DNA from: Hydrogenophaga sp.
Lineage (GTDB): Bacteria > Pseudomonadota > Gammaproteobacteria > Burkholderiales > Burkholderiaceae_C
Reading direction: 5' to 3'
NCBI RefSeq assembly: GCF_030158645.1
Contig: NZ_JAOASO010000038.1
Coordinates: 1-64,000 of the forward strand
Length of the DNA: 64,000 nucleotides
Shown: positions 6,165 through 21,296 of the stretch, piece after piece
How positions within the stretch are numbered: position 1 is the stretch's first letter
Layout: every line of letters begins with the position of its first letter
Program-made: the position numbers and the translations under genes
The notes under the pieces: model-generated
The model's database searches: none
What the model saw: only the letters and a program-made list of their open reading frames with translations
What the model was told of the DNA's origin: nothing

Positions 6165-6413
6165 TCAAGGCGAGGCGGGCGACAGCAACCAGGCTTGCAC
6201 CTCGGCGGCGGTGGGGATGCGGCCACTGCTCACCAGCTTCTCGTTGATGACCAGGCCCGGTGTGGAGATCAGGTCGAAGGCAATGATCTGCTTCATGTCG
6301 GTCACCTTCACGAACTCCGCTTCGATCCGGGCTGCGCTGGCGGCCTCGCGCGCCACCGCCTCCAGCTTTTTGCAGTTGGCGCAGCCGGAGCCGAGGATTT
6401 TCACGGTCAACAT
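6165..6413 (-). CDS. Small thioredoxin-like redox disulfide protein
   Basis: An 82-residue thioredoxin-fold mini-protein with a CxxC active site in GSGCANCKK (Cys11 and Cys14) and the cis-proline segment STPGLVIN. It is the small family often annotated as redox-active disulfide protein 2, which commonly accompanies an ArsP/DUF318 permease. Here it follows such a permease by about 30 bases on the same strand, so it may supply reducing power or handle metalloid-thiol intermediates for that transporter; this is inference. Confidence 0.85.
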   Translation of the reverse strand: MLTVKILGSGCANCKKLEAVAREAASAARIEAEFVKVTDMKQIIAFDLISTPGLVINEKLVSSGRIPTAAEVQAWLLSPASP

Positions 6414-6442: not shown

Positions 6443-7888
6443 TCAGGCGGGCACGGTCGCGCGCTGGCGTTTGCGCAACTGGCGCAGGGCCACGGACAAG
6501 GCGAGCAGCACCAGCGCCATCACCGCGGTCAATGCGGGCCAGCCCGCGCCGTCTGACCAGGCGCCAAAAATCAGGCCGGCGCACACGCTGAAGACCGCCA
6601 CCCAGGCAACGTAGGTCGCCGTCTTGGTCCAGCCGATCACGGCAGCCACCATCAACATGCTTTGCAGGCTGAGTTCCGGATCGGCCATGAGGTAGGCCAG
6701 CAAGGGACCGGGGTGCATGCCGAGGTCGAGGAACATGCGTGCCACCGGCACTTCCACCAGCGTGGGAAAGTACATGAAGACGCCAAAGCCCACCGCCACT
6801 GCGTTGGCCTGCACCGTGTTGCTGCCCGCGAGGGACTCGATCCATTCCGGCCGGATCAGCTGGCGCACCATGCCCACGATGAACACGCCGATCACCAGCA
6901 CCAGAAAGATCTGCTTCACGAAGCGCCAGGTTTCCCACAGCCACGAAGGCCAGTCATCGGCGGCAAGCCGCTTTGCGTGGTACCAGACCGACCCCATGGC
7001 CAGCGCCACGGCCACCGCGCGGCCCGTGACCACGATGTCCAGCCCGTTGCTGCCCGGCACCAGGCTCATCGAAGCCACCAGCAGCGTGGTCGCGGCCAAG
7101 CCCAGCACGAGCCAGGTCCAGCGGTTGGCACCCTCGGTGACGTTCTCAAGACCCTTGTGCGCGACGGCGGCGATCAGCACCAGCAGCACGATCAGCAGCG
7201 AGCCGTGCAGGCTCACACCCTCTTCGCCCTTGGCCGCGTCAAACGGGACCCAGCCGAGCAGGGTGGTTTGCCAGCTTTGCGCCCACGTGCCGGGCAACAC
7301 GAACGATCCCAGTGATGCGGTCAGCGGCCACAGTTTCAGGGTGCCTGCGATCAACAGCGCCACCAGCGACACCAGAACCCCCAGCGCAGCCGGCGAGATG
7401 CTGGCCTTGTCCGCAAAGAGTGGGTCGGTCTGTGCATCGTGGGCCGCGTCATCGCGCCAGAACATCAGCGCCATCAACAGACCGATGCCGACGCCGAACA
7501 CCAGGCACAGCACGAGGCGGGCCACAGCGAATTCGGGCCCGAGGATGCTGCCGGTGTAGGCCAGCGCCATGATGTTGCCCGCCGGTGCGAAGAACAGAAA
7601 GGTCATGGCCGGACCAATCCCGGCGCCCTTGCGGTAGATGCCGGCGAACAAGGGCACGATGGTGCAGGAACACACCGCCAGCAGCGAGCCCGCCGCCGCC
7701 GCCGCCGGGTAAGACACGAAGGCGGGCACATGGCGGCCGAGCCAGCGCGTGATGCTGGCCTTGGGGATCAACGAGGCCATGGCACCGGCAATGAAAAACG
7801 CGGGCAGCAGGCACAGCAAGACGTGCGCCGCCAAGTAGGCCGCCAAGCTGCCGGCTCCGCCGTGGATCATCTTCAGAAACAGTTCCAT
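6443..7888 (-). CDS. ArsP/DUF318-type permease
   Basis: A 481-residue polytopic membrane protein with roughly ten hydrophobic segments. The family signature around CSCTIVPLFAGIYRKGAGIGPAMTFLFFAP, with its CxC pair, is characteristic of the DUF318/UPF0718 permeases, some of which (ArsP) export methylated trivalent arsenicals. The region around residues 145-165 is a charged cytosolic linker. The ATG at 7888 follows AGGTGG at a workable distance; a GTG one codon upstream is an alternative. Position next to the ars genes and the following thioredoxin-like gene supports a metalloid role, but the substrate is not established. An FNR-like site lies in its own upstream region. Confidence 0.85.
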   Translation of the reverse strand: MELFLKMIHGGAGSLAAYLAAHVLLCLLPAFFIAGAMASLIPKASITRWLGRHVPAFVSYPAAAAAGSLLAVCSCTIVPLFAGIYRKGAGIGPAMTFLFFAPAGNIMALAYTGSILGPEFAVARLVLCLVFGVGIGLLMALMFWRDDAAHDAQTDPLFADKASISPAALGVLVSLVALLIAGTLKLWPLTASLGSFVLPGTWAQSWQTTLLGWVPFDAAKGEEGVSLHGSLLIVLLVLIAAVAHKGLENVTEGANRWTWLVLGLAATTLLVASMSLVPGSNGLDIVVTGRAVAVALAMGSVWYHAKRLAADDWPSWLWETWRFVKQIFLVLVIGVFIVGMVRQLIRPEWIESLAGSNTVQANAVAVGFGVFMYFPTLVEVPVARMFLDLGMHPGPLLAYLMADPELSLQSMLMVAAVIGWTKTATYVAWVAVFSVCAGLIFGAWSDGAGWPALTAVMALVLLALSVALRQLRKRQRATVPA

Positions 7889-7972
7889 CACACACCCACC
7901 TGGTCACATCGTTTCATTATGGGAATCCGACGTGCCCCGGGAAGGGGGCGGACCAGGTCATTTGCGATCTGT

Positions 7973-8026: not shown

Positions 8027-8729
8027 TCAGAGGGCGCTCTGGTTCACGCGCTTCATCAGCTCGGCGGCCGTTTCCCTGCGTTCGCTGTAACGGTCCACCA
8101 GGTAGGGCGACACGTCGCGTGTGAGCCAGGTGAACTTCACCAGCTCCTCCATCACGTCCACGATGCGCTCGAAGAAAGGCGAGGGCTTCATGCGGTCGTG
8201 GTCGTCGAACTCCTGGAACGCCTTGGCAACCGACGACTGGTTGGGGATGGTGATCATCCGCATCCAGCGGCCCAACACCCGCATCTGGTTGACGGCGTTG
8301 AACGACTGCGAGCCGCCGCAGACTTGCATGACCGCCAGCGTCTTGCCCTGTGTGGGTCGCACAGCGCCCACCGACAAAGGGATCCAGTCGATCTGCGCTT
8401 TCATGATGCCGGTCATGGCCCCGTGCCGCTCGGGCGAGCACCACACCATGCCTTCGGCCCACGCCGCCAGCTCGCGCAACTCGACCACCTTGGGGTGTGT
8501 GTCGGGCGCGTCGTCGGGCAGGGGCAGGCCGCTTGGGTTGTACACACGCGCCTCAGCGCCCATGGCCCTCAGCAGTCGCGCGCACTCTTCCACCACGAGG
8601 CGGCTGAACGAGCGCGGACGCAGAGACCCGTAAAGCAGCAGGATCCGGGGTGCGTGGCTGCTGACCAAGCCGGGCCGCAGGCGTTGCGGGTCGGGCACCC
8701 TGAAGTGGGTGGGGTCCGCCTGGGGCAGG

Positions 8730-8749
<20 letters not shown>
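8027..8749 (-). CDS. arsH: NADPH-dependent FMN reductase ArsH
   Basis: A 240-residue flavoprotein of the ArsH family, which oxidises trivalent organoarsenicals or reduces quinones and metals using NADPH and FMN. The flavodoxin-like phosphate loop [14 protein letters not shown] and the segments [21 protein letters not shown] and [16 protein letters not shown] are family hallmarks. I chose the ATG at 8749 because AAGGGA lies upstream at SD distance; an in-frame TTG lies farther up. The gene overlaps the 3' end of acr3 by 20 bases, so it belongs to the same operon. Confidence 0.95.
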
Positions 8750-9793
<1,044 letters not shown>

Positions 9794-9794
<1 letters not shown>

Positions 9795-10294
9795 CAGGCT
9801 TTGACCTGACCAATGCCGGCGAGCTCTTGCTTCAGTGCGAGTTTGTCCAGCTTGTCGATGGGCAGCACCGTGAACAGGGCGATGCGCCGGTTCATCACGA
9901 TGAAGCAGTCGTTGAAAGCGCGCTGGATGACTTCGTCGCTGCCCCTGACCGCGGCCGGATCTTCAACACCCCAGTGGGCCGACATGGGTTGGCCGGGCCA
10001 GACGGGGCACACCTCACCGGCCGCCTTGTCGCACACGGTCAGCACAAAGTCCATGTGGGGCGCATCGGCAGCAGCGAACTCGCTCCAGTTCTTGCTGCGC
10101 AAGTCGGCGGTCTTGAAGCGGTTGCGCTCCAGCAGTTCGATGGCGAGGGGGTTCACCGCACCGGCCGGGTGGCTGCCGGCGCTGAAAGCGCGGAAGCGGC
10201 CCGCGCCTTGCTGGTTGAGGATGGCCTCGGCCATGATGCTGCGGGCCGAGTTGCCGGTGCAGATGAACAGGACGTTGTAGACAGGAGGCGTCAT
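9794..10294 (-). CDS. arsC: Arsenate reductase, low-molecular-weight phosphatase fold
   Basis: Cytosolic enzyme reducing arsenate to arsenite for export by Acr3. The 166-residue protein has the P-loop CTGNSARS near the N terminus with the nucleophilic cysteine, and the later pair of cysteines in [15 protein letters not shown] that relays the disulfide; this is the thioredoxin/glutaredoxin-coupled LMW-PTPase class rather than the E. coli plasmid class. It lies between arsR (10-base gap) and acr3 (1-base overlap). Confidence 0.95.
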
Positions 10295-10304
10295 GGGAAA
10301 CCTT

Positions 10305-10634
10305 TCAGCAGGTGGTGCAGACGGGGACGGGTGTGGTCACTTCACAGGGTTGTCCCTGGCAGCAGTGGGCGGTGAGGAACTGCAGCAAATCGTTCATGGC
10401 GCCGAACTCGGCGCGGTAGATCAGGTGGCGGCCATCGCGCTCCTGCGACACCAGACCCGCGTGGCTGAGCTCCTTGAGGTGGAACGACAGCGCCGTGCTG
10501 GCCACACCCAGCGATTCGCTGAGCTGACCCGGCGTGAGGCCCTGGGGACCTTGTGCCACAAGGGCGCGAAAGATGCGCAGGCGCGTCTCTTGCGCGAGGG
10601 CACCGAGGGATTTGACGGCGAGGGTTTCGTCCAT
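10305..10634 (-). CDS. arsR: Arsenical-resistance repressor ArsR
   Basis: ArsR/SmtB-type winged-helix repressor that leaves DNA on binding arsenite. The 109 residues contain the recognition helix region TALSFHLKELSHAGLV and the wing ERDGRHLIY. It lacks the ELCVC-type pair in the DNA-binding helix; instead cysteines cluster at the C terminus (HCCQGQPC and a final CTTC), the alternative As(III)-binding arrangement. The gene sits inside the operon it probably controls, 10 bases after arsJ. The palindromes at 14351 and 12995 are the likely operators. Confidence 0.94.
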   Translation of the reverse strand: MDETLAVKSLGALAQETRLRIFRALVAQGPQGLTPGQLSESLGVASTALSFHLKELSHAGLVSQERDGRHLIYRAEFGAMNDLLQFLTAHCCQGQPCEVTTPVPVCTTC

Positions 10635-10644
10635 GGAATGTCCT

Positions 10645-11883
10645 TCAGGCGGTGGTGTGATGCAACGCGGCCCGGGTGGGCAGCTTGAGCGTGGCCAGCC
10701 AGCAAACGATCAACATGAGCGCCGAGCCCAGCAGCGCATACAGCAGCCCGCCCCACTGGTAGAGCAGGCCCGAGAGCAGCGTGCCGCTGAAGCGCCCCAG
10801 CGCGTTGGCCGCGTAATAAAAGCCGACGTCTTCGGCCGCTTTCTCCGAGCCGGCGTAGGCCAGCACCAGGTAGGAGTGCACCGACGAGTTCACCGCGAAC
10901 GCAAAGCCGAACACGCCGAGGCCGCCCACCACCACCCAGGGGAGGTGCGGCACGTCCAGCGCCACCGCCACCGCCAGGCCGATGGGCACCAGCGCCAGCA
11001 AGGCCGACCACAAACGGGCCGCGGGCACCTCGGTGCTCAGGCCGTCGGCGCTGCGTTTGACGAAGGTCGGTGCCATGGCCTGCACCGCGCCGTAGCCAAT
11101 GGTCCAGGCGGCCAGAAACGTGCCCACCATGGTGAAGGTCCAGCCCTGCGAATACAGGTACACCGGCACACCCACCACGAACCACACGTCGCGCGCGCCG
11201 AACAGCACCACGCGCGCCGCGGCCAGCACGTTCACACCGGTGTTCTTCGCAAACAGTTCCTTGGCCGACTTCGAGGCCTTGTTCTTGCCCATCATCTGCG
11301 GCAGCGAACTCACCACGCCGACCAACACCAACGCCAGCAGCGCCGCCATGGCCCACAGCGCGTGCTGGAAACCCAGCGTCTGCAGCAGCAGGCCGCCCAG
11401 GAAGAAGCCCACACCCTTCATGGCGTTCTTGCTGCCGGTGAAAAAAGCGACCCACTTGAAGAGCTGGCCCGAACCCTGGTTCTTCGCCTGATCGGCCGTG
11501 ACCTTGATGGCCGACTTGCTGGCGGTTTTGGTGAGGTCCTTGGCCACGCCGCAGATGCCCTGCGCCAGCACCACCCAGGCCACCGACATCGCTGCGCTCC
11601 ACGCGGGATCGAGGAAGGACAGCACCGTGAAGCCGATGATCTGCGTGACCAGTCCCACGGTGAGCATGCGCGTGATGCCGTAGCGCGTGGCCAGCCAGCC
11701 GCCGACGAAGTTGGCCACGATGCCGGCGGCCTCGTACAGCAGGAACAGGAACGCCAACGTGAACGGCGAATAGCCCAAGCCGTAGAAGTGCAGCAGCACC
11801 AGCATGCGCAGCGCGCCGTCGGTGAGCGTGAAGCCCCAGTAGGCGGCGGTGACGATGGCGTAGTGGCGTTCGGCGGTGTTCAT
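10645..11883 (-). CDS. arsJ: Organoarsenical efflux MFS transporter ArsJ
   Basis: A 412-residue, 12-segment major-facilitator protein. Next to GAPDH it forms the known ArsJ pathway: GAPDH makes unstable 1-arseno-3-phosphoglycerate from glyceraldehyde-3-phosphate and arsenate, and ArsJ exports it. Recognisable parts are TDGALRMLVLLHFYGLGYSPF at the N terminus, the long cytosolic loop with KDLTKTASKSAIKVTA, and FAVNSSVHSYLVLAY. The start codon is 54 bases after the GAPDH stop; a dispersed repeat fills that gap. Confidence 0.93.
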   Translation of the reverse strand: MNTAERHYAIVTAAYWGFTLTDGALRMLVLLHFYGLGYSPFTLAFLFLLYEAAGIVANFVGGWLATRYGITRMLTVGLVTQIIGFTVLSFLDPAWSAAMSVAWVVLAQGICGVAKDLTKTASKSAIKVTADQAKNQGSGQLFKWVAFFTGSKNAMKGVGFFLGGLLLQTLGFQHALWAMAALLALVLVGVVSSLPQMMGKNKASKSAKELFAKNTGVNVLAAARVVLFGARDVWFVVGVPVYLYSQGWTFTMVGTFLAAWTIGYGAVQAMAPTFVKRSADGLSTEVPAARLWSALLALVPIGLAVAVALDVPHLPWVVVGGLGVFGFAFAVNSSVHSYLVLAYAGSEKAAEDVGFYYAANALGRFSGTLLSGLLYQWGGLLYALLGSALMLIVCWLATLKLPTRAALHHTTA

Positions 11884-11937: not shown

Positions 11938-12981
11938 TCAGATGCCGACGGTTTGCATGTGGCAGGCCAGGTCGACCATGCGGCAGGCGTAGCCCATTTC
12001 GTTGTCGTACCAGGCGTAGACCTTGAGCAGCGTGCCGTCGGTGACCATGGTGGAGGGCGCGTCGACGATGCTCGATCGTGTGTCGCGGGCGTAGTCCACG
12101 CTGACCAGCGGGCGGGTCTCATAGCCCAGGATGCCGGCCAACGGGCCCCGGGCTGCTGCTTCGAACAGGGCGTTCACCTCGTCCACCGTGGTCTCGCGCC
12201 GCAGTTCGAACACGCAGTCGGTGAGCGAGGCATTGAGCGCCGGCACGCGCACCGCGTGGCCGTTGAGCTTGCCCTTGAGCTCGGGGTAGATCAGCGCGAT
12301 GGCGGTGGCGCTGCCGGTGGTCGTCGGCGCCAGGCTCAGCATCGCGCTGCGGGCGCGGCGCAGGTCCTTGTGCGGCGCGTCCACCACCAGGTTGGTGTTG
12401 GTCGGGTTGTGCAGCGTGGTGATCTGGCCGTGGCGGATGCCGATGGCCTCATGCACCACCTTCACCACCGGCGCCAGGCAGTTGGTGGTGCACGAGGCGG
12501 CGGTCACGATGCGGTCGCGCGCGGGCTCGTACCGCGTTTCGTTCACACCCACCACGATGTTGAGCACGCCGCCCGTTTTCACGGGTGCGGCCACGATCAC
12601 GCGCTTCGCACCGCGGTCCAGATGGCCCTGGATCGTCTCGGGCGTGAGGAACTTGCCGGTGCATTCCAGAACCAGGTCAACGCCCAGATCGCCCCATGGA
12701 ATTTCGCCCGGTGTGGCGTGGGCGCTGAAGCCCAGGCGATGCTGGTCAATGCGGATGGCGTCTTCACCGTCGGCGGCGATGTCGGCGCGCCATTTGCCCT
12801 GCACGCTGTCAAAGGCCAGCAGGTGCGCGGTGGCCGCTGCGCCGCCCTTAAATTCGTTCAGATGCACCGCCTGCAGCCGGTTGCCGGCGCGCGGGTCGGT
12901 GGTGTCGCGTTCGGCTGCGCCCAGGGCGGCGCGCAGGGCCAGGCGGCCGATGCGGCCCATGCCGTTGATGCCAACTTTCAT
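11938..12981 (-). CDS. gapdh: ArsJ-associated glyceraldehyde-3-phosphate dehydrogenase
   Basis: A 347-residue GAPDH. The N terminus [18 protein letters not shown] is the NAD-binding motif, the catalytic cysteine lies in ASCTTNC, and [13 protein letters not shown] closes the fold as usual. Placement between arsJ and the ATP-grasp gene in an ars cluster marks it as the dedicated arsenate-detoxifying paralogue and not the glycolytic housekeeping copy. I chose the ATG at 12981; upstream codons are unrelated in composition. A TTCAA-N6-TTGAA palindrome lies 14 bases upstream of the start. Confidence 0.93.
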
Positions 12982-12994
12982 GTGGGAACTTCCT

Positions 12995-13010
12995 TTCAAG
13001 ATTGGTTGAA
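12995..13010. promoter_or_regulatory. Candidate ArsR operator upstream of the GAPDH gene
   Basis: TTCAA-GATTGG-TTGAA is a perfect 5-bp inverted repeat with a 6-bp spacer. With flanks it reads TTTCAA-N6-TTGAAGTGT, the same extended sequence as at 14350-14370. A further TTGAA follows at 13014. It lies just before the GAPDH start, where a repressor would block an internal promoter. Confidence 0.55.
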
Positions 13011-13057
13011 GTGTTGAACGGTTTTGTGACGCCCGTGTGACCCTCATGCGGCCGCGC

Positions 13058-14350
13058 TCAGGGCACGACGACGACCGGCGCGAAGCCGCCGCCTTCGGTG
13101 CGGAAGTTGGTGGTCTGGCCGGTCCAGGTGCGTGCGGCCAGCAGTTGCACCCCACCGCGGTAGGTGTAGGCGCGCAGATCCAGCTTGAGGCGCTGGGTGC
13201 CGTCCTGCACCCGCACCAGCCGCTCGCTCGGGGGCACGAGGGCTTGCGCCACGTAGTCGCCCGCCAGGATCTCGGCCCACACGCGTCGGGTCAGCTTGTC
13301 GCCCCGGTAAGCGGCGCGTGCGCCAAAGCCCGCCGCTGGTTTGAAGAACAGGCCACGGCGGGCGGCCCACAACGCGTCCGCCCGGTCGGCGCTCACCCGT
13401 TGCGTGCTGGGCACGACGGTGTCGAGCAGCGCGCGGTCTGCCTCGCTGACGCCCCACTGCGCGAGCAGGTCGCCGTCGGACAGCGCGACCAGGTTGCGCT
13501 TGTCGGCATGCAGGGCGTGTGTGCGCGGGTGGGGTGTGAGCACCACCGCGCCGGCCTCATGGGCCAGACGCAGGGCTTGGTGGTCGTCCTCCTGCAGATA
13601 AAAGTCGGTCAGGCGGTTGTAGACGAGGTCCACGGCCATGCCCGCGGGCAGGGCGGGGTGGTGCAGCGCGCCGTCGTGCCACTGCAGCTCGGTCGCGTCC
13701 GCCACCACGGCTGTCAACCCGTGCGCGGCGAACAGTTCGCGAAACACGTCGAATTCGGGCGCGAGGTATTGCTGCGTGGGCGCGTCGTCCACGATCAGCA
13801 CGTTGCGCCACGGTGCCTGGCCGCGCTGCGATGCCCATTCCGCGCGGAACATGTCCACGAACTCCGCGTCGAGTGCGCGCAGCGCGCCTCGGGGATCGGC
13901 CACCTGGCCCATGGCGTTGCAGCAGGCGCTGTGTGCGCGGGCCAGGGCGGCATTGAGCAGTGCGCCGCCCGCGTTGCTGTTGATCTCGATCAGGCGCGGC
14001 CCCGCGTCGGTGAGGTGGAAGTCGTAGCCCATGAACACGCCCGCCGGGCCGTGGTCGTGCGCGGCGATGGCGGGTGCCCGCGCCAGCGCCTGCTGTTGCC
14101 AGGCGGGCAGGGCGATCACGCGCTCGATCGCGGCCACCGCCTGCTGGATGCGCCGTTCCATGGCGCTGTCCATGAACACGGCGCTGGCCGAAAACAGATG
14201 CGGGTGGCTGAGCGTCAAGCGCGCGACCAGGCCGTCCAGGGCCGGGCCGGTTTCGAGCTGTTCGCGCAAAAGCGGCAGTGACAGCGTCTGGCAGGCGCAG
14301 CCCAGGTTGAGGGTGTCGGCAAGGTTCATGGCAGGTGCTCTTTCAATCAT
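13058..14350 (-). CDS. Unrecognised ATP-grasp-like protein in the ars operon
   Basis: A 430-residue soluble protein I do not recognise by name. It carries ATP-grasp-like pieces: [10 protein letters not shown] at 120-129 (metal-ligand type), a lysine and glycine-rich loop [19 protein letters not shown] at 335-353, and a late Arg/Asn-rich, glycine-rich region at 391-424. The EIN motif precedes the FKP lysine, which suggests a circularly permuted grasp order. All four cysteines are paired: Cys18-x-Cys20 and Cys143-Cys144. It is first in the minus-strand ars unit and preceded by a candidate ArsR operator. A ligase making a thiol or metabolite used in arsenic handling is one guess. An ATG at 14329 is an alternative start. 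Confidence 0.6.
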
Positions 14351-14366
14351 TTCAATAATAGTTGAA
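14351..14366. promoter_or_regulatory. Candidate ArsR operator upstream of the ATP-grasp gene
   Basis: TTCAA-TAATAG-TTGAA, a perfect inverted repeat with 6-bp spacer, abuts the ATG at 14350. Extended flanks match the GAPDH site (TTTCAA-N6-TTGAAGTGT). It is probably the main operator of the ars operon; if the later start at 14329 is used, it lies 22-37 bases upstream of the gene. Confidence 0.55.
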
Positions 14367-14392
14367 GTGTGACGATGAACGTCGCCGGGCGG

Positions 14393-14410
14393 TTGTCACC
14401 AAAAATTCAT
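14393..14410 (+). promoter_or_regulatory. Weak candidate PhoB box before the acyltransferase gene
   Basis: TTGTCAC-CAAA-AATTCAT has the 7-4-7 spacing of a PhoB box; the first half matches CTGTCAT/C well, the second only in its TCAT end. No good -10 follows at the expected 10-base distance, so this is the weakest of the PhoB sites in the window. Confidence 0.35.
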
Positions 14411-14450
14411 GCGATTGCCTTGGGAAGGTCATGACCTGTTTTCACACTGC

Positions 14451-15269
14451 ATGTTCATGAACACAGAACCCATTTTTCAAGCTGCATCTGCAGAGCCGGC
14501 ACTCGTCAACCTGACCGCGCTGCCCGTGCCGCACGGCATCGAAGTGTCGTGGGCCAGGCACCTGAGCGAGGTGCGTGAAGCACAAAAGCTGCGTTTCGAC
14601 GTGTTTGCCACCGAGATGGGAGCCCGCTTGCCCAACACGGTTCCCGGCCACGACGTGGACCTGTTCGACGACTTCTGCGAACACCTGCTCGTGCGCGACA
14701 AGTCCAGCCAACAGGTGATCGGCACCTACCGCGTGCTCACGCCGGCCCAGGCCAAGCGCGTGGGCAGCACCTACAGCGACACCGAATTCGACCTCACCCG
14801 CCTGCGCGGCGTGCGCGAGCGCATGGTGGAGCTGGGCCGCAGTTGCGTGCACCGGGACCACCGCCACGGCGGCGTGATCATGGCGCTGTGGGGCGCGCTG
14901 GCCAGCTTCATGGTGCGCAACCAGCTCGACACCATGATCGGCTGCGCCAGCATTCCCATGCAGCACGAGGGTGCGCACGGCATGGTGGGCGGCGGGCACG
15001 CAGCGGCCAGCATCTGGCGGCAGGTGAAAGACCAGCACCTCGCGCCGATCGACTTTCATGTGCGCCCGCGCCTGCCGTTGCCGGTGGACCGGCTGAACAG
15101 CGCGCTGGAGGTGCAGCCGCCGGCGCTCATCAAGGGCTACCTGCGCCTGGGCGCCAAGGTGATGGGCCCACCGGCCTGGGATCCGGATTTCAACGCCGCT
15201 GACCTGCCCATGCTGATGCGGCTCTCCGATCTGCCCGCTCGCTACCGAAAGCACTTCCTGGGGGCCTGA
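14451..15269 (+). CDS. OlsB-like GNAT N-acyltransferase
   Basis: About 270 residues of the hemolysin/OlsB family (Acetyltransf_5 type), whose OlsB members transfer a 3-hydroxyacyl chain from ACP to ornithine, making lyso-ornithine lipid. Typical pieces are EAQKLRFDVFATEMGAR, FDDFCEHLLVRD, VIGTYRVL, and VELGRSCVHRDHRHGGVIMALWGAL. No OlsA partner is visible; a glycosyltransferase starts 7 bases downstream, so the product may be glycosylated instead. Start choice is uncertain: ATGs at 14451 and 14457 are equivalent and neither has a strong ribosome site. Location beside a phosphate-starvation cluster fits a phosphorus-free lipid role (inference). Confidence 0.75.
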   Translation: MFMNTEPIFQAASAEPALVNLTALPVPHGIEVSWARHLSEVREAQKLRFDVFATEMGARLPNTVPGHDVDLFDDFCEHLLVRDKSSQQVIGTYRVLTPAQAKRVGSTYSDTEFDLTRLRGVRERMVELGRSCVHRDHRHGGVIMALWGALASFMVRNQLDTMIGCASIPMQHEGAHGMVGGGHAAASIWRQVKDQHLAPIDFHVRPRLPLPVDRLNSALEVQPPALIKGYLRLGAKVMGPPAWDPDFNAADLPMLMRLSDLPARYRKHFLGA

Positions 15270-15276
15270 TGCGCGC

Positions 15277-16398
15277 ATGAAGATCCTGCTCGTCACCGAC
15301 GCCTGGCAACCCCAGGTCCATGGGCTGGTATCCACCCTGGTGGATCTGGTGCGCCAGTTGCAGGTGAACGGGCATGAGGTGGTGGTGATCCAGCCCGGGC
15401 AGTTCCACACGCGGCACTGGCCGTGGCACTCGGGTCAGCCCGGTCTCGCGTTTGCACTGTTCCCGGGCGCCCGTTTGCGCTCGCTGATGGACGCGGCCCA
15501 GGCCGATGCGATTCACATCGCCACCGAGGGGCCGCTTGGGTGGGCCGCCAGGCGCCACTGCCTGAGGCGCGGCTTGCCGTTCACCACGGCCATCCACGGC
15601 AGCTTCCCCGAGACGCTGAAGGGCGCTGTGGGACTGCCCTTGTCCTGGGGATCTTCGTTGCTGCGGCGGTTTCACCAGCCGTCCAGTGGCGTGATGGTGC
15701 CCAACGAGGGCCTGCTCAACCGGCTCAAAGAGCGTGGTTTTCAGCGTTTGCGCCTGTGGGCGCCCGGGGTGGACACGCACCTGTTTGCCCTGAACGACCG
15801 CCAGCGCCCGCTGGCTGCCATCGGCCCGCTCGCCCACCCGGTGAGCTTGTATGTGGGGCGGCTCTCGGTTGAGAAAAACGTCGAGGCCTTCCTGGCTCTG
15901 GATGTGCCGGGCAGCAAGGTGGTCTGCGGCGAAGGCCCCATGGCCTCGGGGCTGCGTGCGCGCTACCCCAACGTGCACTGGCTGGGCGAGTTGCCGCGCC
16001 AGGAACTCGCACAGGTTTACGCCGCAGCGGACGTGTTCGTGTTTCCCTGCCGGGGTGAAACCCAGGGACAGGCGATGCTGGAGGCGATGGCCAGCGGCGT
16101 CCCGGTGGCCGCGTATCCGGTGGACGGGCCACTGCAACTCGTGGGCCAGGGCCGGGGCGGTGCGTTGCACGACGATCTGCGCGTGGCCTGGCACGATGCG
16201 CTCAAGATCCAGCGCCACGAAGCGCGCGACCGCGCCCTGCTGTCGGGCTGGGGGCGGTCCAGTGCGGTGTTCCTGTCGAACCTGGTGGTGTTGCCCCGGC
16301 ATCTCCGACTGCGGCCGAAGCCAGGCTTCGGCGTGCGGGTGAACCCGGCGGGTGCCATCACAAAACTGTCACACAAACGTCATTCGGCCGTTGAATAA
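15277..16398 (+). CDS. GT4-family glycosyltransferase, MgtA-like
   Basis: A 373-residue GT-B fold glycosyltransferase. The N-terminal half has DAWQPQVHGLVSTLVDLV, HIATEGPLGWAARR and HGSFPETL; GVDTHLF precedes the second domain with LYVGRLSVEKNVEAFL, the nucleotide-sugar site and the E-x7-E-type segment GETQGQAMLEAMASGVPVAAYPVDGP. This pattern resembles MgtA-type alpha-mannosyl/glucosyl transferases that act on lipid acceptors. The immediate upstream OlsB-like gene suggests a shared lipid product. The last 45 bases of the gene contain the PhoB box for ppk1. Sugar and acceptor are unknown. Confidence 0.85.
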   Translation: MKILLVTDAWQPQVHGLVSTLVDLVRQLQVNGHEVVVIQPGQFHTRHWPWHSGQPGLAFALFPGARLRSLMDAAQADAIHIATEGPLGWAARRHCLRRGLPFTTAIHGSFPETLKGAVGLPLSWGSSLLRRFHQPSSGVMVPNEGLLNRLKERGFQRLRLWAPGVDTHLFALNDRQRPLAAIGPLAHPVSLYVGRLSVEKNVEAFLALDVPGSKVVCGEGPMASGLRARYPNVHWLGELPRQELAQVYAAADVFVFPCRGETQGQAMLEAMASGVPVAAYPVDGPLQLVGQGRGGALHDDLRVAWHDALKIQRHEARDRALLSGWGRSSAVFLSNLVVLPRHLRLRPKPGFGVRVNPAGAITKLSHKRHSAVE

Positions 16399-16399
16399 T
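16355..16399 (+). promoter_or_regulatory. PhoB-dependent promoter of ppk1
   Basis: CTGTCAC-ACAA-ACGTCAT (16366-16383) is a PhoB box with exact 7-4-7 spacing. A third half-site, CCATCAC, lies one helical turn upstream at 16355-16361 in the same 11-base phase. Ten bases after the box is AATAAT (16394-16399), a good -10 at the spacing typical of PhoB-activated promoters. The site overlaps the 3' end of the glycosyltransferase gene. Confidence 0.75.
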
Positions 16400-16497
16400 C
16401 GTCACGGGACAGGCGCTCGCTGCGAGGCACACTCTGTGTGACGCCGTGCGCCAGGACCCCAGGGCGGTCGCACCCCGCGACAACAACAAGACCTGAC

Positions 16498-18576
16498 ATG
16501 AGCGGCAACCACTCCAACAGCAAGCATCCTTTCCTCGATCGCGATCACAGCATCCTGGCCTTCAACGAGCGCGTCATGGACTGGGCGCGCCGCCCCGACG
16601 TTCCGCCGCTCGAACGCCTGCGCTACCTCAGCATCGTCTCCAGCAACCTCGACGAGTTCTTCGAGGTTCGCGTCGCACCCCACCTCACCGCCGCGCAGGC
16701 CAACGAGCAGCGTGGCCTGTACACCGCGCAGAGTTTCGAGAAGCTGTCGGAAAAAATCCACGAGCTGGTGGCACAGCAGTACGCCATCTACAACGACGAA
16801 CTGCTGCCCCTGCTGGAGAAAAAGGGCATCAAGCTGATCTCGCACGGCGAACGCAATCCGCGGCAGCGGCGCTGGGTCAAGGAGTTCTTCGTCAACGAAG
16901 TGCAGCCCTTGCTGATGCCGGTGGGCTTGGACCCGGCGCACCCGTTTCCGCAAGTGGCCAACAAGTCGCTCAATTTCATCGTGCGCCTGGCGGGCAAGGA
17001 CGCGTTCGGGCGCGAGAACGAGATCGCGATCGTGAAAGTGCCGCGCATCCTGCCGCGCTTCTTCCGCATGCCCCCGATCAAGGGCTCCAAGCAGACGCAC
17101 TTCGTGTCGATCTCCAGCCTGATCCGCTCCCACCTGGGCGACCTGTTCCCGGGCCGACAGGTCACCGAGTTCTCGCAGTTCCGCGTCACGCGCCACTCCG
17201 ACCTGGCGGTGGACGAGGAAGAGGTGAAGAACCTGCGCACCGCGTTGCGCAAGGGCTTGCAACAGCGTCACTACGGCCAGGCCTTGCGGCTGGAGGTCTC
17301 GGCCGGTTGTTCGGAGTTTCTGTCCAACTTTTTGCTGGAGCAGTTCGCCTTGCCCGCCAAGGCCTTGTACCGCGTGCCCGGTCCGGTGAACCTGGTGCGC
17401 CTGAACCAGCTGATCGACAAGGTGGACGCGCCCGCGTTGCGCTTCGAGGCTTACAACGGCGGCTGGCCCGCACAGCTCACCCCCGGTCAGTCCTACTTCG
17501 AGCGGCTGCAGCAGGGCGACGTGTTGATCCACCAGCCCTACGAGAGTTTTGACGCGGTGCTGGCGTTCCTGCGCGAGGCGGTCGAAGACCCGGACGTGCT
17601 GGCCATCAAGCAGACCATCTACCGCACCGGCGCCAAGTCGGAGCTCATGAACCTGCTGCGCGAAGCCGTGCGCCGGGGCAAGGAAGTCACGGCCGTGGTG
17701 GAGCTCAAGGCGCGCTTCGACGAGGAAGCCAACATCAACTACGCCGAGCGGCTGGAGTCCGTGGGCGCGCAGGTGGTCTACGGTGTGGTCGGGCTCAAGA
17801 CCCACGCCAAGATGCTGCTGGTGACCCGCCGCGAAGCCAGCGGGCTCAAGCGTTACGCCCACCTGTCCACCGGCAACTACAACCCTGGCACAGCCAGGCT
17901 CTACACCGACCTGAGCTACCTCACGGCCGACGACGCGCTCACCGCCGATCTGGAACAGATTTTTCTGCACCTGGCCAGCCAGAACCGCCTGCCCAAGCTC
18001 AACAAGGCGCTGATCGCACCGTTCCATTTGCACAAGGCCATGCTGGACAAGCTGGAGGCGGCAGGAGCGGCCGCCAAAGCCGGCCAGGATGTGCGCGTGA
18101 TCGTCAAGATGAACGCCTTGACCGACGAGCAGCTGGCGCGGGCACTCGCGGTGGCCTCGCAGCAGGGCGTGAAGATCGACCTCATCATCCGCGGGGCCTG
18201 CATCCTGCCGGCCCAGGTGCCCGGCTTCACCGACAACGTGCGCGTGCGCTCGGTGATCGGTCGCTTGCTGGAGCACTCCCGGGTGTTCTATTTCCGCACC
18301 GGTGACGCGGAAGAGCTCTGGCTGTCGAGTGCCGACTGGATGAACCGCAACATGCTGCGCCGGATCGAACTGGCCTGGCCCGTGACCGACCATGCGCTGC
18401 GCCACCGCATCATGGACGAGTGCCTGTCGGCCTACCTGCACGACACCAAGGACGCCTGGCTGCTGCAGCCCGATGGCCGCTACGTGCCCGCCAGCATCAC
18501 GGGCAGCGGTCGCACGCGTGCGGTGATGCACTCTGCCCAGGCCAGCCTGATGGCGCGCTACGGCAGCAAGGGATGA
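16498..18576 (+). CDS. ppk1: Polyphosphate kinase 1
   Basis: Peripheral membrane enzyme polymerising ATP gamma-phosphate into polyphosphate. The 692-residue protein starts the conserved N domain at FLDRDHSILAFNERVMDWA, has PFPQVANKSLNFIV and, in the catalytic half, GLKTHAKMLLVTRRE with the autophosphorylated histidine, then YAHLSTGNYNPGTARLYTD. SSADWMNRNMLRRIELAWPV is also typical. The ATG at 16498 is chosen because the conserved region starts about 12 residues later. A PhoB promoter sits about 100 bases upstream; sixA follows directly. Confidence 0.97.
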   Translation: MSGNHSNSKHPFLDRDHSILAFNERVMDWARRPDVPPLERLRYLSIVSSNLDEFFEVRVAPHLTAAQANEQRGLYTAQSFEKLSEKIHELVAQQYAIYNDELLPLLEKKGIKLISHGERNPRQRRWVKEFFVNEVQPLLMPVGLDPAHPFPQVANKSLNFIVRLAGKDAFGRENEIAIVKVPRILPRFFRMPPIKGSKQTHFVSISSLIRSHLGDLFPGRQVTEFSQFRVTRHSDLAVDEEEVKNLRTALRKGLQQRHYGQALRLEVSAGCSEFLSNFLLEQFALPAKALYRVPGPVNLVRLNQLIDKVDAPALRFEAYNGGWPAQLTPGQSYFERLQQGDVLIHQPYESFDAVLAFLREAVEDPDVLAIKQTIYRTGAKSELMNLLREAVRRGKEVTAVVELKARFDEEANINYAERLESVGAQVVYGVVGLKTHAKMLLVTRREASGLKRYAHLSTGNYNPGTARLYTDLSYLTADDALTADLEQIFLHLASQNRLPKLNKALIAPFHLHKAMLDKLEAAGAAAKAGQDVRVIVKMNALTDEQLARALAVASQQGVKIDLIIRGACILPAQVPGFTDNVRVRSVIGRLLEHSRVFYFRTGDAEELWLSSADWMNRNMLRRIELAWPVTDHALRHRIMDECLSAYLHDTKDAWLLQPDGRYVPASITGSGRTRAVMHSAQASLMARYGSKG

Positions 18577-18602
18577 CCGTGATTGCCCCGGAAAGCCGCA
18601 GC

Positions 18603-19085
18603 ATGGACCTGATTCTCTGGCGGCACGCCGAAGCCCACGAGCACCCCGATGGGCTTGCAGGCAAGCCGGGCGACGCCCGGGACCTTTTGCGCCGGCTCAC
18701 GCCGCGCGGCGAAAAGCAGGCCGCGCGCATGGCGGCCTGGCTGGACCGGCAACTGCCGGACGGTGCGCGCATCTGGAGCAGCCCGGCTTCGCGCTGCGAG
18801 CAGACGGCGCTCGCCCTGGGACGCAAGTTCAAGCTGCGCGAAGCGCTGTTGCCCGAAGGCGATCCGCTGGCGTTGCTGGAACTGGTGCAGTGGCCCCACG
18901 GGAAGTCGCCGGTGGTGGTGGTGGGGCACCAGCCCACGCTGGGGCGGGTGGTGGCCCGCCTGCTCAATCTGGCCGAGGACGATTGTTCGGTGAAGAAGGG
19001 GGCTGTGTGGTGGCTGCGGCACCGCGAGCGCGCCAGCGGCAGCCAGACCGTCGTGGTGACGGTGCAAACCCCCGAGTTGATCTGA
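18603..19085 (+). CDS. sixA: SixA-type histidine phosphatase
   Basis: A 160-residue member of the histidine phosphatase superfamily with the catalytic RHAE (LILWRHAEAHE) at the N terminus, the second histidine in VVVVGHQPTLGR, and the substrate-side SSPASRCEQTA. SixA proteins remove phosphate from histidine phosphotransfer domains. GGAAAG lies 7 bases before the ATG at 18603, so I prefer it over an upstream ATG at 18573 that overlaps the ppk1 stop but has no spaced ribosome site. Close coupling to ppk1 suggests a role in phosphate or polyphosphate control. Confidence 0.85.
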   Translation: MDLILWRHAEAHEHPDGLAGKPGDARDLLRRLTPRGEKQAARMAAWLDRQLPDGARIWSSPASRCEQTALALGRKFKLREALLPEGDPLALLELVQWPHGKSPVVVVGHQPTLGRVVARLLNLAEDDCSVKKGAVWWLRHRERASGSQTVVVTVQTPELI

Positions 19086-19091
19086 ACGAAG

Positions 19092-19110
19092 CCCGGGGAC
19101 TTGCCCCGGG
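19092..19110. terminator. Bidirectional hairpin between convergent genes
   Basis: CCCGGGG and CCCCGGG pair perfectly over 7 bp around an ACTTG loop, 7 bases after the sixA stop and 7 before the end of the convergent lysine-rich gene. No strong T-run follows on either side, so its termination strength is uncertain. Confidence 0.6.
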
Positions 19111-19116
19111 TCGGTG

Positions 19117-19545
19117 TCAGGCGGTGGCAACCTTTTTGGCGGGCGCAGCGGCCTTCTTGGCTGCGGGCTTGGCAGCCACTTTTTTCGCGACCGCTGCGTT
19201 GACGGCGGGCTTGGCCACCGGCTTGGTGGCCACTTTCGCGGCGGCCTTCACCGCAGGCTTGGCGACCGGTTTGGCCACGGGCTTTTTCGGCGCTTCGGGT
19301 TTCTTCTCGGTGCCAGTTGGGCGGCCGGTCTTGAGCGTGGGAACGGCGGACAACGCGGCCTTGAAGGCGGCGTCGTTCAGGCCTTGCAAGGCCATGAGGC
19401 CAGCGCGCAGCAGCTCGCTTTTCTTCACGCTGGTGCCCAGCGCAATGGCGCGGGTCTTGAGCGTTTCGATGGCGGCAAATTCCGCTTTGGGGATGGTGAA
19501 GCTGTCGCGCACGAGCTTGGGCTTCTTGTTGTTCTGACTGGCCAT
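19117..19545 (-). CDS. Lysine/alanine-rich histone-like protein with PhoB box
   Basis: A 142-residue protein in two parts. Residues 1-70 (with KLVRDSFTIPKAEFAAIETLKTRA and SELLRAGLMALQGLND) look like a small helical, perhaps ribbon-helix-helix-like or oligomerising domain. Residues 75-142 are a lysine, alanine, proline and valine tail of KPVAKPAVKAAAK-type repeats, like histone H1, AlgP or the PAKKA tail of PhaM. Such tails bind DNA or polyphosphate. It stands between sixA and ppx and is preceded by a near-perfect PhoB box on its strand, so a role in polyphosphate-granule or nucleoid organisation under phosphate limitation is plausible. Function not known. Confidence 0.7.
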   Translation of the reverse strand: MASQNNKKPKLVRDSFTIPKAEFAAIETLKTRAIALGTSVKKSELLRAGLMALQGLNDAAFKAALSAVPTLKTGRPTGTEKKPEAPKKPVAKPVAKPAVKAAAKVATKPVAKPAVNAAVAKKVAAKPAAKKAAAPAKKVATA

Positions 19546-19580
19546 GGGTGGACTCCGTTGGTCGATGAAAAGGCTGGCAG

Positions 19581-19605
19581 TATAAACCGTATAAACCGTT
19601 TATAT
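19581..19605. repeat. AT-rich tandem repeat and palindrome before the lysine-rich gene
   Basis: TATAAACCG occurs twice in tandem (19581-19589, 19590-19598), and the second copy forms the near-palindrome TATAAACCGTTTATA (19590-19604). It supplies possible -10 elements for the minus-strand gene and may be an operator, conceivably for that gene's own N-terminal domain. Confidence 0.45.
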
Positions 19606-19609
19606 GGTT

Positions 19610-19627
19610 GTGACAGTGACATGACAG
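19610..19627 (-). promoter_or_regulatory. PhoB box of the lysine-rich gene
   Basis: On the minus strand the sequence reads CTGTCAT-GTCA-CTGTCAC, a textbook 7-4-7 PhoB box and the best match in the window. It lies 65 bases before the start at 19545. The spacing to the AT-rich -10 candidates is not the ideal 10 bases, so the exact promoter is unclear. Confidence 0.75.
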
Positions 19628-19660
19628 ATGCGTGACGCAGAGCGTCGCGAGCGCAGCCGG

Positions 19661-21145
19661 TCAGCGAATGTCGGCGGTGAATTTCCAGGCCGATTTTTGC
19701 CAGGCCACCACCTCTTCACCCAGCAACCACGCCGATTGCGGGTAGCGTTTCGCCCAGCCCGGGTTGGTGGCCAGCTTGAAGGCGCGTGCCTTGTAGCTCA
19801 GCTTGACCGATTCGTGCTCGGGCATCTGGCGCGCATGGCACAGCAGCACCGCCAGCCGCAGGGCCATGAGCTGTTTGGCGAACAACTCGTCCTGCAGCGC
19901 TTCTTCGAGCTTGCGCAGCTTGCCACGCTGGCCCAGCACCAGCTGACTCATGCGGTGCAGTTCGGGCAACGAGAAGCCGCGGGCGTCCACGTTGTCCAGG
20001 ATGTACGCGCCGTGGTGGTGCGAACGCTCGTGCGAAATGTGGGTGCCGATTTCGTGCAGCCGCGCAGCCCAGGCCAGCTTTTGCGAATAACGTTCGTTTT
20101 GCGCGTCCAGCGCGGCGATCTGCGCGAAGAGGGCGGTGCTCACCGCACTCACACGCTTGCCCTGCGCCTCGTCGGCCGAGAAGCGGTGGGTCAGCCAGCT
20201 CACGGTGCGCTCACGCACGTCGCCGCCGTCGGTGTCGCGGTCGATCAGGTCGTACAGCGCGCCGTGGCGCAGGGCGCCCTGAGCCGGCAGCATCTGCTCG
20301 ATGCCGAACAAATCAAAGATGGCGCGCAACACGCTCACACCGCCGCCGATCACCGGACGCCGGTCGTCTTTGAGGCCTTCGATGCGAAGCTGGTCGACGT
20401 TGCCCGCCTTGATCATGCGGTCGGTGAGCCAGTCCAGCCCGGAGCGGGTGACCACGCCCGAGGCCCAGCCGTTGGCGGCCAGCATGTCGGCAACCGCACT
20501 CACCGTGCCGGACGAGCCGTACGCGATGGTCCAGTCGGCCGGCGGGAATTTGTCCAGCGCCTCGTCGATCACGGCCTTGGCGGCCACCTCGGCCGTCTTG
20601 AAGGCTGCCAGCGAACACTGTCCTCTGGGAAAGTACCGGGTGGACCAGGCCACGCTGCCCAGCCGGTAGGACTCCATGGTGCGGGCCGAATACCCTTGGC
20701 CGAGGATCATTTCCGTGGAGCGTCCGCCGATGTCGACCACCAGCCGTTTCTCGTCGGAGTGAGGCAACAGGCGTGAGACGCCCTGGTAGATCAGCCTTGC
20801 TTCTTCGTAGCCGGACACCACGTCGATCGGGAACCCCAGGATGGTCTGGGCCTGGCGCACGAAGTCGTCGCGGTTTCTGGCTTCGCGCAGCGTCTGGGTG
20901 GCCACGGCGCGCACCTGCTGGCGCTTGAAACCGTGCAGCCGCTCGGCAAAACGGGCCAGGCACTCCCAGCCGCGTTCCATGGCGGCCTGGCTCAGGTTTT
21001 TTTCCTCGTCCAGCCCGTTGCCCTGGCGCACGGTCTCCTTGAGGTATTCGATCCGTTCGATGTGCCCCGAGTGGTAGCGGCCGATTTCCAGCCGAAAACT
21101 GTTGGAGCCGAGGTCGATGGCGGCAAGTAAGGTACCGTTTTGCAT
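19661..21145 (-). CDS. ppx: Exopolyphosphatase, Ppx/GppA family
   Basis: Hydrolyses terminal phosphates from polyphosphate, or pppGpp in GppA members; the two activities cannot be separated by eye. The 494-residue protein has the actin-fold ATPase motifs LLAAIDLGSNSFRLEIG near the start, SGYEEARLIYQGV, VVDIGGRSTEMILG and AYGSSGTVSAVADML, then an HD-like C-terminal region with ARLHEIGTHISH. ATG at 21145 is chosen because the conserved beta strand begins five residues later. It is divergent from pstS, and the shared 223-base region contains the pstS PhoB promoter. The neighbourhood with ppk1 favours exopolyphosphatase. Confidence 0.93.
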   Translation of the reverse strand: MQNGTLLAAIDLGSNSFRLEIGRYHSGHIERIEYLKETVRQGNGLDEEKNLSQAAMERGWECLARFAERLHGFKRQQVRAVATQTLREARNRDDFVRQAQTILGFPIDVVSGYEEARLIYQGVSRLLPHSDEKRLVVDIGGRSTEMILGQGYSARTMESYRLGSVAWSTRYFPRGQCSLAAFKTAEVAAKAVIDEALDKFPPADWTIAYGSSGTVSAVADMLAANGWASGVVTRSGLDWLTDRMIKAGNVDQLRIEGLKDDRRPVIGGGVSVLRAIFDLFGIEQMLPAQGALRHGALYDLIDRDTDGGDVRERTVSWLTHRFSADEAQGKRVSAVSTALFAQIAALDAQNERYSQKLAWAARLHEIGTHISHERSHHHGAYILDNVDARGFSLPELHRMSQLVLGQRGKLRKLEEALQDELFAKQLMALRLAVLLCHARQMPEHESVKLSYKARAFKLATNPGWAKRYPQSAWLLGEEVVAWQKSAWKFTADIR

Positions 21146-21296
21146 GCGAGGGGAGAGCTGCGAGCCAGAACAGCTCAGGGAAAAGGCAAGACAAGGCAGG
21201 GCGAGCCCGGATTGTGACGCATGCCCGGGGCAGTACCCCACTTTGCGGTCCGGAGCCGCCCGGTGTCTTCACGGCGGACTCTGTGACATTGGTGAG

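Follow-up and report, generated by a model that had tools for sequence, protein, structure and literature searches.

A gene at the head of an arsenic resistance (ars) cluster in Hydrogenophaga sp. encodes a member of a previously undescribed family of putative permuted ATP-grasp ligases, predicted by structure modelling to have a eukaryotic-type glutathione-synthetase-like fold. One clade of this family consists largely of operator-linked accessory genes in ars clusters; other clades accompany copper and, in one case, mercury resistance genes. The gene lies in the 64,000-nucleotide stretch of DNA analysed here, referred to below as the window. The ars operon is among the best-studied resistance systems, with known parts comprising reductases, pumps, repressors and arsenic-modifying enzymes, and many environmental bacteria carry this undescribed glutathione-synthetase-like enzyme among their arsenic resistance genes. 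If the function proposed below is correct, a recurrent operator-linked ars ligase with copper- and mercury-linked relatives would imply that bacteria under stress from thiol-binding metals produce a dedicated protective metabolite, and the four conserved cysteines and clear fold make the ligase idea directly testable.

The gene was annotated as a (conserved) hypothetical protein in 30 of 31 plasmid records and had no listed feature in the remaining one. Among the literature matches listed, which left subscription literature mostly outside their scope and so are weak evidence of absence, no ars- or metal-linked ligase gene of this type was described. The term ATP-grasp is absent from two ars surveys (PMC4435449, PMC6205960); the ATP-grasp passages of PMC7826186 concern part of a mycosporine-like amino acid cluster, and that of PMC10092412 is one entry in an expression table.

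The ars cluster of the window and its palindromes

The ligase open reading frame occupies 13058..14350 on the reverse strand and encodes 430 residues from the ATG at 14350. A second ATG at 14329, giving a protein of 423 residues with the N-terminus [10 protein letters not shown], is the more likely start from sequence comparison, since several relatives begin in the same way. Downstream of the ligase gene and in the same orientation lie genes encoding an ArsJ-associated glyceraldehyde-3-phosphate dehydrogenase (GAPDH; 11938..12981, NF033735, 538 bits against a cut-off of 450), the organoarsenical efflux protein ArsJ (10645..11883, NF033734, 522 bits against a cut-off of 400), an ArsR-family repressor with C-terminal cysteines (10305..10634, PF12840 and NF033788), an ArsC-like protein of the LMW phosphatase family (9794..10294, PF01451, under the ArsC equivalog cut-offs), the arsenite efflux protein Acr3 (8730..9794, TIGR00832), an ArsH-like FMN reductase (8027..8770, PF03358, named by eye), an ArsP-type permease (6443..7891, PF03773) and a small thioredoxin-like protein (6165..6398, PF13192). 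The first-pass annotation of this DNA had placed the ligase gene before GAPDH-arsJ-arsR-arsC-acr3-arsH, and this order was borne out.

A palindrome, TTCAA-N6-TTGAA, lies 5' of the ligase gene at 14351..14366 and is a putative ArsR operator. A second copy is present 5' of the GAPDH gene at 12995..13010. Both fit this pattern exactly, and these are the only two sites in the whole 64 kb window, where 0.02 were expected; two sites were seen in none of 100 shuffled sequences. The match between the two copies had been noted previously and stands, whereas the claim that the palindrome abuts the ligase start does not if translation begins at ATG 14329, which is 21 bp away. The ligase gene heads the cluster as first suggested, but its description as the first gene of one long ars operon may not strictly hold: it may form its own transcription unit, since GAPDH carries its own copy of the palindrome. 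A sigma-70 promoter scan of 12950-14500 gave no match.

The palindrome is a mark of related ars clusters. In 77 arsenic loci, duplicates included, 57 sites were found, with at least one site in 50 loci and a density of 0.475 per 10 kb. Densities elsewhere were 0.029 per 10 kb in control regions, 0.037 in loci of cysteine-less relatives, 0.06 in copper and mercury loci and 0.063 in the remaining loci. Removal of identical rows left 52 palindromes, present in 45 of 70 ars loci (0.48 per 10 kb, compared with 0.03-0.07 across the unlinked, copper, cysteine-less and control loci). Nearly all sites (53/57) were located at the start of arsR, gapdh or the ligase gene, at distances of 0-141 bp from starts defined by tblastn or open reading frames; the other four had no such start inside the limits set. 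These data support an ars-type operator before the ligase gene, and the position of the palindrome suggests that it is bound by ArsR. The operator sequences given for Pseudomonas putida in the relevant part of PMC7994332 differ from it, and the passages concerned in PMC5116461 contain no operator sequences.

On the other side of the ligase gene, the region 14409-21241 contains genes for an acyltransferase (PF13444), a glycosyltransferase and a polyphosphate-kinase-like protein, with phosphate-type genes farther away, the polyphosphate-kinase-like and phosphate-type genes being recognised by eye. Related genomes show a comparable arrangement on the chromosome, which in some cases (L046, L047, L078) has no ars genes.

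Predicted fold, conserved core and cysteine pairs

No fitting family was found for the window protein in Pfam (E up to 10), NCBIfam (E up to 1) or PHROGs (E up to 1), the sole Pfam line being a chance-level PCP match (E 0.45). CP_ATPgrasp_2 (PF14403) matched 10 of the 44 members of the family alignment (best E 8e-8), the window protein not among them, and in seven members scanned separately it gave two matches, both below the 32-bit cut-off. An AlphaFold model predicted from the 44-row alignment had a pLDDT of 94.1 and a pTM of 0.92. When this model was used in a Foldseek search, 67 matches were obtained at E <= 0.001, with glutathione synthetases and glutathionylspermidine synthetase (GspS) among the top. 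The best match was plant homoglutathione synthetase (3kal; E 4.9e-15, TM 0.63), and yeast and human glutathione synthetases (1m0w, 2hgs) were also matched; GspS appeared farther down the list as well, along with Cp1B and YgiC/YjfC. The family profile reached no PDB sequences. The fold assignment therefore rests on structure prediction, the known ligases lying beyond the reach of sequence searches.

The model points to the window protein being a member of the ATP-grasp superfamily of the permuted type, with predicted ligase activity. The first-pass annotation had described a 430-residue protein with two ATP-grasp-like motifs in permuted order, and the open reading frame, motif positions and motif order were all confirmed; the term permuted ATP-grasp is apt because the model matches eukaryotic-type glutathione synthetases. 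The first motif, [10 protein letters not shown], comprises residues 120-129 (13964..13993, reverse strand) and contains E122 and N124, a presumed Mg/ATP motif. The second, [13 protein letters not shown], comprises residues 335-347 (13310..13348, reverse strand) and contains K337, a presumed ATP-binding lysine with its loop. We take the motif order of glutathione synthetase, with E-x-N first and the lysine and loop late, to be the same as that of the window ligase. The likeness to the eukaryotic-type enzymes lies in the overall fold, whereas identity in structural alignments is about 12-15% and there is no sequence-level match. Eukaryotic-type GSS (PF03917) was matched by none of 20 relatives, but as the control was also without any match this carries no weight on absence. 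We know of no eukaryotic-type glutathione synthetase with an N-terminal C-x-C and a C-C pair.

Glutathionylspermidine synthetase and YgiC/YjfC (PF03738) likewise share the fold, and the motif residues (D, E-x-N, K, K-P) line up in the GSP_synth profile alignment. The comparison of a six-row GSP_synth alignment with the family profile was, however, not significant (E 0.038, probability 1.4%). PF03738 scored above cut-off in one of 20 relatives, with no such match in the window's genome. An HMM check against this family had been proposed, and it gave neither a significant profile match nor a direct Pfam match; membership of GSP_synth was rejected on the profile comparison. The fungal ligase Cp1B (9cjn) resembles the window protein in fold and as a small-molecule ligase but, in the passages of PMC12568646 on E-64 synthesis, belongs to another host and another pathway.

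Relatives of the window protein fall into a long cysteine clade and a shorter cysteine-less clade. At E <= 1e-10, a search of 398 genomes of the phylum gave matches in 128, many matches beginning approximately 40-60 positions into the profile and corresponding to the shorter form without the N-terminal C-x-C. Both C-x-C and C-C were present in 136 of 160 rows of the profile alignment, and 17 cysteine-less rows formed one side of a branch in a quick tree (SH-aLRT 83). The two clades are related by profile comparison (E 4e-111) and share D110, E122, N124, K284, K337, R393 and R407. By analogy, D110, E122, N124, K284 and K337 presumably form the acidic Asp/E-x-N site and the ATP lysines, which stand in permuted order in the window ligase and in both clades. 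Residues near-invariant in the cysteine clade only are N15, the four cysteines, R349 and R377. In several cysteine-less members (L208, L209, L211, L213, L215, L218-L220, L223) an MFS transporter or SbcC-like ATPase was seen nearby by eye.

The cysteines of the window ligase are C18, C20, C143 and C144 only, confirming that all four lie in the pairs C18-x-C20 (codons 14291..14299, reverse strand) and C143-C144 (codons 13919..13924, reverse strand). Among 141 rows of the cysteine clade, counted with L205 and L206 left out, C18 is present in 139, C20 and C143 each in 140 and C144 in 138. All four are kept in 75 of 77 ars-linked rows, so conservation in ars-linked relatives, set as a test of the first-pass annotation, was found. 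They are likewise kept in 22 of 22 copper-linked rows and in 36 unlinked rows, all these row counts including duplicate loci. The cysteines, being identical in copper-linked, unlinked and arsenic-linked members, thus give no arsenic specificity, and the idea that the 'metalloid-friendly' pairs are an arsenic signature with arsenic-specific chemistry was rejected as worded. Nor are the four always found together, as C143-C144 is absent from L204, which adjoins an ArsR-like gene, and C144 is lost from L051 and L106, all three with C-x-C kept. Both pairs are lost from L205. L093 and the mercury-linked member L163 have the C-C pair and align with an absent or incomplete N-terminus, incomplete in the case of L163.

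The same genome also encodes a paralogue of the window protein (52% identity), extended at its C-terminus (L112:7596-9551, contig C90), near genes recognised by eye as encoding a heavy-metal P-type ATPase and other metal-type proteins. This long paralogue had no Pfam match at E <= 1, and the predicted model of the C-terminally extended copper-type paralogue was poor (pLDDT 55).

Linkage to arsenic, copper and mercury resistance genes

A search of 299 genomes of the taxonomic family gave strong matches in 37, and 45 at E <= 0.001 of which eight were weak; the first locus set was the best 80 of 317 and is biased to close relatives. A less biased sample of 35 loci from these genomes excluded the window, L115 (without the N-terminus) and the G274 fragment, with L114 assigned to the cysteine-less group. 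Within it 18 loci had ars markers and five others a heavy-metal P-type ATPase. Of 20 control regions, positioned at round-number coordinates in 12 gene-carrying genomes, one had ars markers (Fisher p 3e-4, duplicate loci included), and of 17 cysteine-less loci none had them (Fisher p 1e-4); these p-values are a guide only because the rows are related. The cysteine-less sister clade had no metal markers of any kind in its 17 loci. Marker labels were assigned by chosen tblastn thresholds, with a lone heavy-metal P-type ATPase counted as a copper marker, and short contigs can hide neighbouring markers.

In a larger set of 134 loci outside the cysteine-less group, from which nine identical rows had been dropped with near-copies remaining, 70 were arsenic-linked, 21 copper-linked, one mercury-linked and three amidotransferase-linked, with 39 having none of these markers. 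At least one ars marker was thus present in 70 of the 134 loci and at least two in 61. In 58 of these 70 ars loci, a same-strand ars gene lay no more than 150 bp from the ligase gene. The commonest orders were ArsR before the ligase (37), ArsC after it (16) and ArsH before it (8), with Acr3 before (5), GAPDH after (4) and ArsJ before (3) being rarer. Fourteen phylum loci outside the cysteine-less group comprised one arsenic, five copper and eight with neither; these include L205, which has lost its cysteines, and the fragments L206 and L207, L205 and L206 also being in the 134-locus set. The survey of homologues proposed in the first-pass annotation therefore bears out a recurrent presence in ars clusters but not a confinement to them. 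Some of the 39 loci with no marker nearby had full flanks and lay at the same chromosomal place (L046, L047, L078).

Fifteen of 31 plasmid records were examined, of which 11 had copper markers and one mercury markers (merT and merA on pMR68). The markers had been taken from the window, L053, L058 and L081 for arsenic and from L149, L152, L158, L160 and L163 for copper and mercury, so donor loci match by construction; 12 of the 15 plasmids score, and a copper marker was present in seven of the ten left after removal of the five donors. The only mercury-marker case is pMR68 (L163), where the ligase gene follows merT, merF, merA and a gene for alkylmercury lyase at a distance of 2-3 kb. On a Stutzerimonas plasmid (L159), merB and merD are annotated approximately 5.5 kb from the gene.

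A quick tree of 115 rows, built under a simple model, contained one clade of 46 rows (support 94) with 34 arsenic-linked, 11 other and one amidotransferase-linked member and no copper-linked member. Copper-rich clades were located elsewhere, and an ArsJ-linked clade showed arsenic use of its own. Well-supported branches require the arsenic label to have changed at least 14 times.

Relatives adjoin amidotransferase genes in a further setting. In six genomes (G121, G002, G025, G152, G032, G158), an amidotransferase matching TIGR03104 above cut-off is the immediate same-strand neighbour of the ligase gene, either before or after it, and an amidotransferase adjoins it by annotation on plasmid pPNAP02 (L151). 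Relatives beside an amidotransferase of this NAGGN type were L175, L117, L179, L115, L151, L192 and L193; in L117 and L179 ars genes lie on the opposite strand approximately 2-4 kb from the amidotransferase-linked gene. In the NAGGN pathway, as set out in the relevant passages of PMC8070244, Ngg acetylates and joins two glutamines and AsnO amidates the product. The relatives stand beside the amidotransferase at the place expected of Ngg, but the Ngg of those passages belongs to another family (TIGR03103, GNAT/ATP-grasp) and the window locus has no such amidotransferase. TIGR03103 was above cut-off in none of 12 genomes, with weaker partial matches in all 12, and no control genome was above cut-off. 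It is suggestive only that a relative of the window protein takes the ligase place of Ngg beside the amidotransferase, and the amidotransferase-linked relatives perhaps belong to a different dipeptide-amide pathway.

Proposed function and alternatives

On balance, and with moderate confidence, we favour a ligase under ArsR control that has a cysteine metal site and whose product, a small peptide or amide, would protect against thiol-binding metal(loid)s. Since relatives adjoin copper and mercury resistance genes, the ligase may make a small molecule for survival of toxic metals. Beyond a ligase with a conserved four-cysteine motif, the mechanism we infer would run as follows. The protein would act as an ATP-dependent carboxylate-amine ligase with a glutathione-synthetase-like permuted ATP-grasp fold, and ArsR would switch its gene on along with the efflux genes. 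Its product, a small peptide or amide joined from two small substrates (probably an amino acid, short peptide or glutathione-like thiol), would aid tolerance of arsenite here and of copper and perhaps mercury in relatives. C18-x-C20 and C143-C144 may together form one metal(loid)-binding site that structures or gates the enzyme. A thiol-synthesising role, raised at the outset, would be a guess. Rather doubtful is the more specific possibility of a metal(loid)-gated peptide ligase, in which the four cysteines would sense As(III), Cu(I) or Hg(II) and the thiol or amide peptide made would be a general soft-metal chelator, a counterpart of phytochelatin synthase on another fold. The likeness to phytochelatin synthase is in the functional idea only, that of a metal-driven enzyme making a thiol peptide; its fold is unrelated and without ATP-grasp.

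The same cysteines could instead belong to a metal(loid) buffer or chaperone binding As(III), Cu(I) or Hg(II), with the ATP-grasp fold a scaffold or a means of ATP-driven hand-off rather than a ligase. Four near-invariant cysteines absent as a set from the metal-unlinked sister clade, and neighbours pointing to three thiophilic elements, are consistent with this, but D110, E122, N124, K284, K337 and R407 are kept even in members without metal context and an enzyme fold of 423-430 residues would be a costly buffer, making it unlikely. A ligase acting on a target protein, to which it would attach an amino acid or peptide in the manner of the tubulin-tyrosine-ligase-like and CDC123-like ATP-grasps of the same superfamily, would fit the finding that no dedicated small-molecule partner gene was recognised by the chosen markers beside the gene in ars loci. 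We consider it quite improbable, given that the fold ranks with small-molecule peptide ligases and that several loci pair the gene with a dipeptide-synthesis amidotransferase.

The genomic data bear on whether ars linkage reflects function at all. A stress or housekeeping enzyme at a conserved place near the polyphosphate-kinase-like gene might acquire ars neighbours by chance or through a shared island, and in L046, L047 and L078 the gene is kept at that place without ars markers, the location being common to related genomes and 39 of 134 loci being markerless. The several distinct ars arrangements, the forced changes of arsenic label in the quick tree, the ars-type site and the scarcity of ars markers in the sister clade and controls argue against this explanation, which is decidedly unlikely. 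That the fold is nearest to eukaryotic-type glutathione synthetases, and that arsenite consumes glutathione, would favour a second glutathione synthetase topping up glutathione under metal stress. Yet GshB was above cut-off in all ten carrier genomes checked, so ordinary glutathione does not depend on the ligase. GshB is encoded there by a gene of its own, and the window protein had no match in NCBIfam including bacterial GshB (TIGR01380). This co-occurrence, a further difference from the eukaryotic-type enzyme, also makes an ordinary glutathione synthetase unlikely. Judged from the GspS alignment, the window ligase has glycine 108 at the position where human GSS and GspS presumably have their substrate-binding arginine, and a second glutathione synthetase is very improbable indeed.

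Besides the preferred small-molecule ligase and these alternatives, one minor observation concerns the neighbours of the ligase gene. A zinc-carboxypeptidase-type gene is located close to it in L172 (10641-11651), L078 (6853-7926) and L075, those in L172 and L078 corresponding to PF00246.
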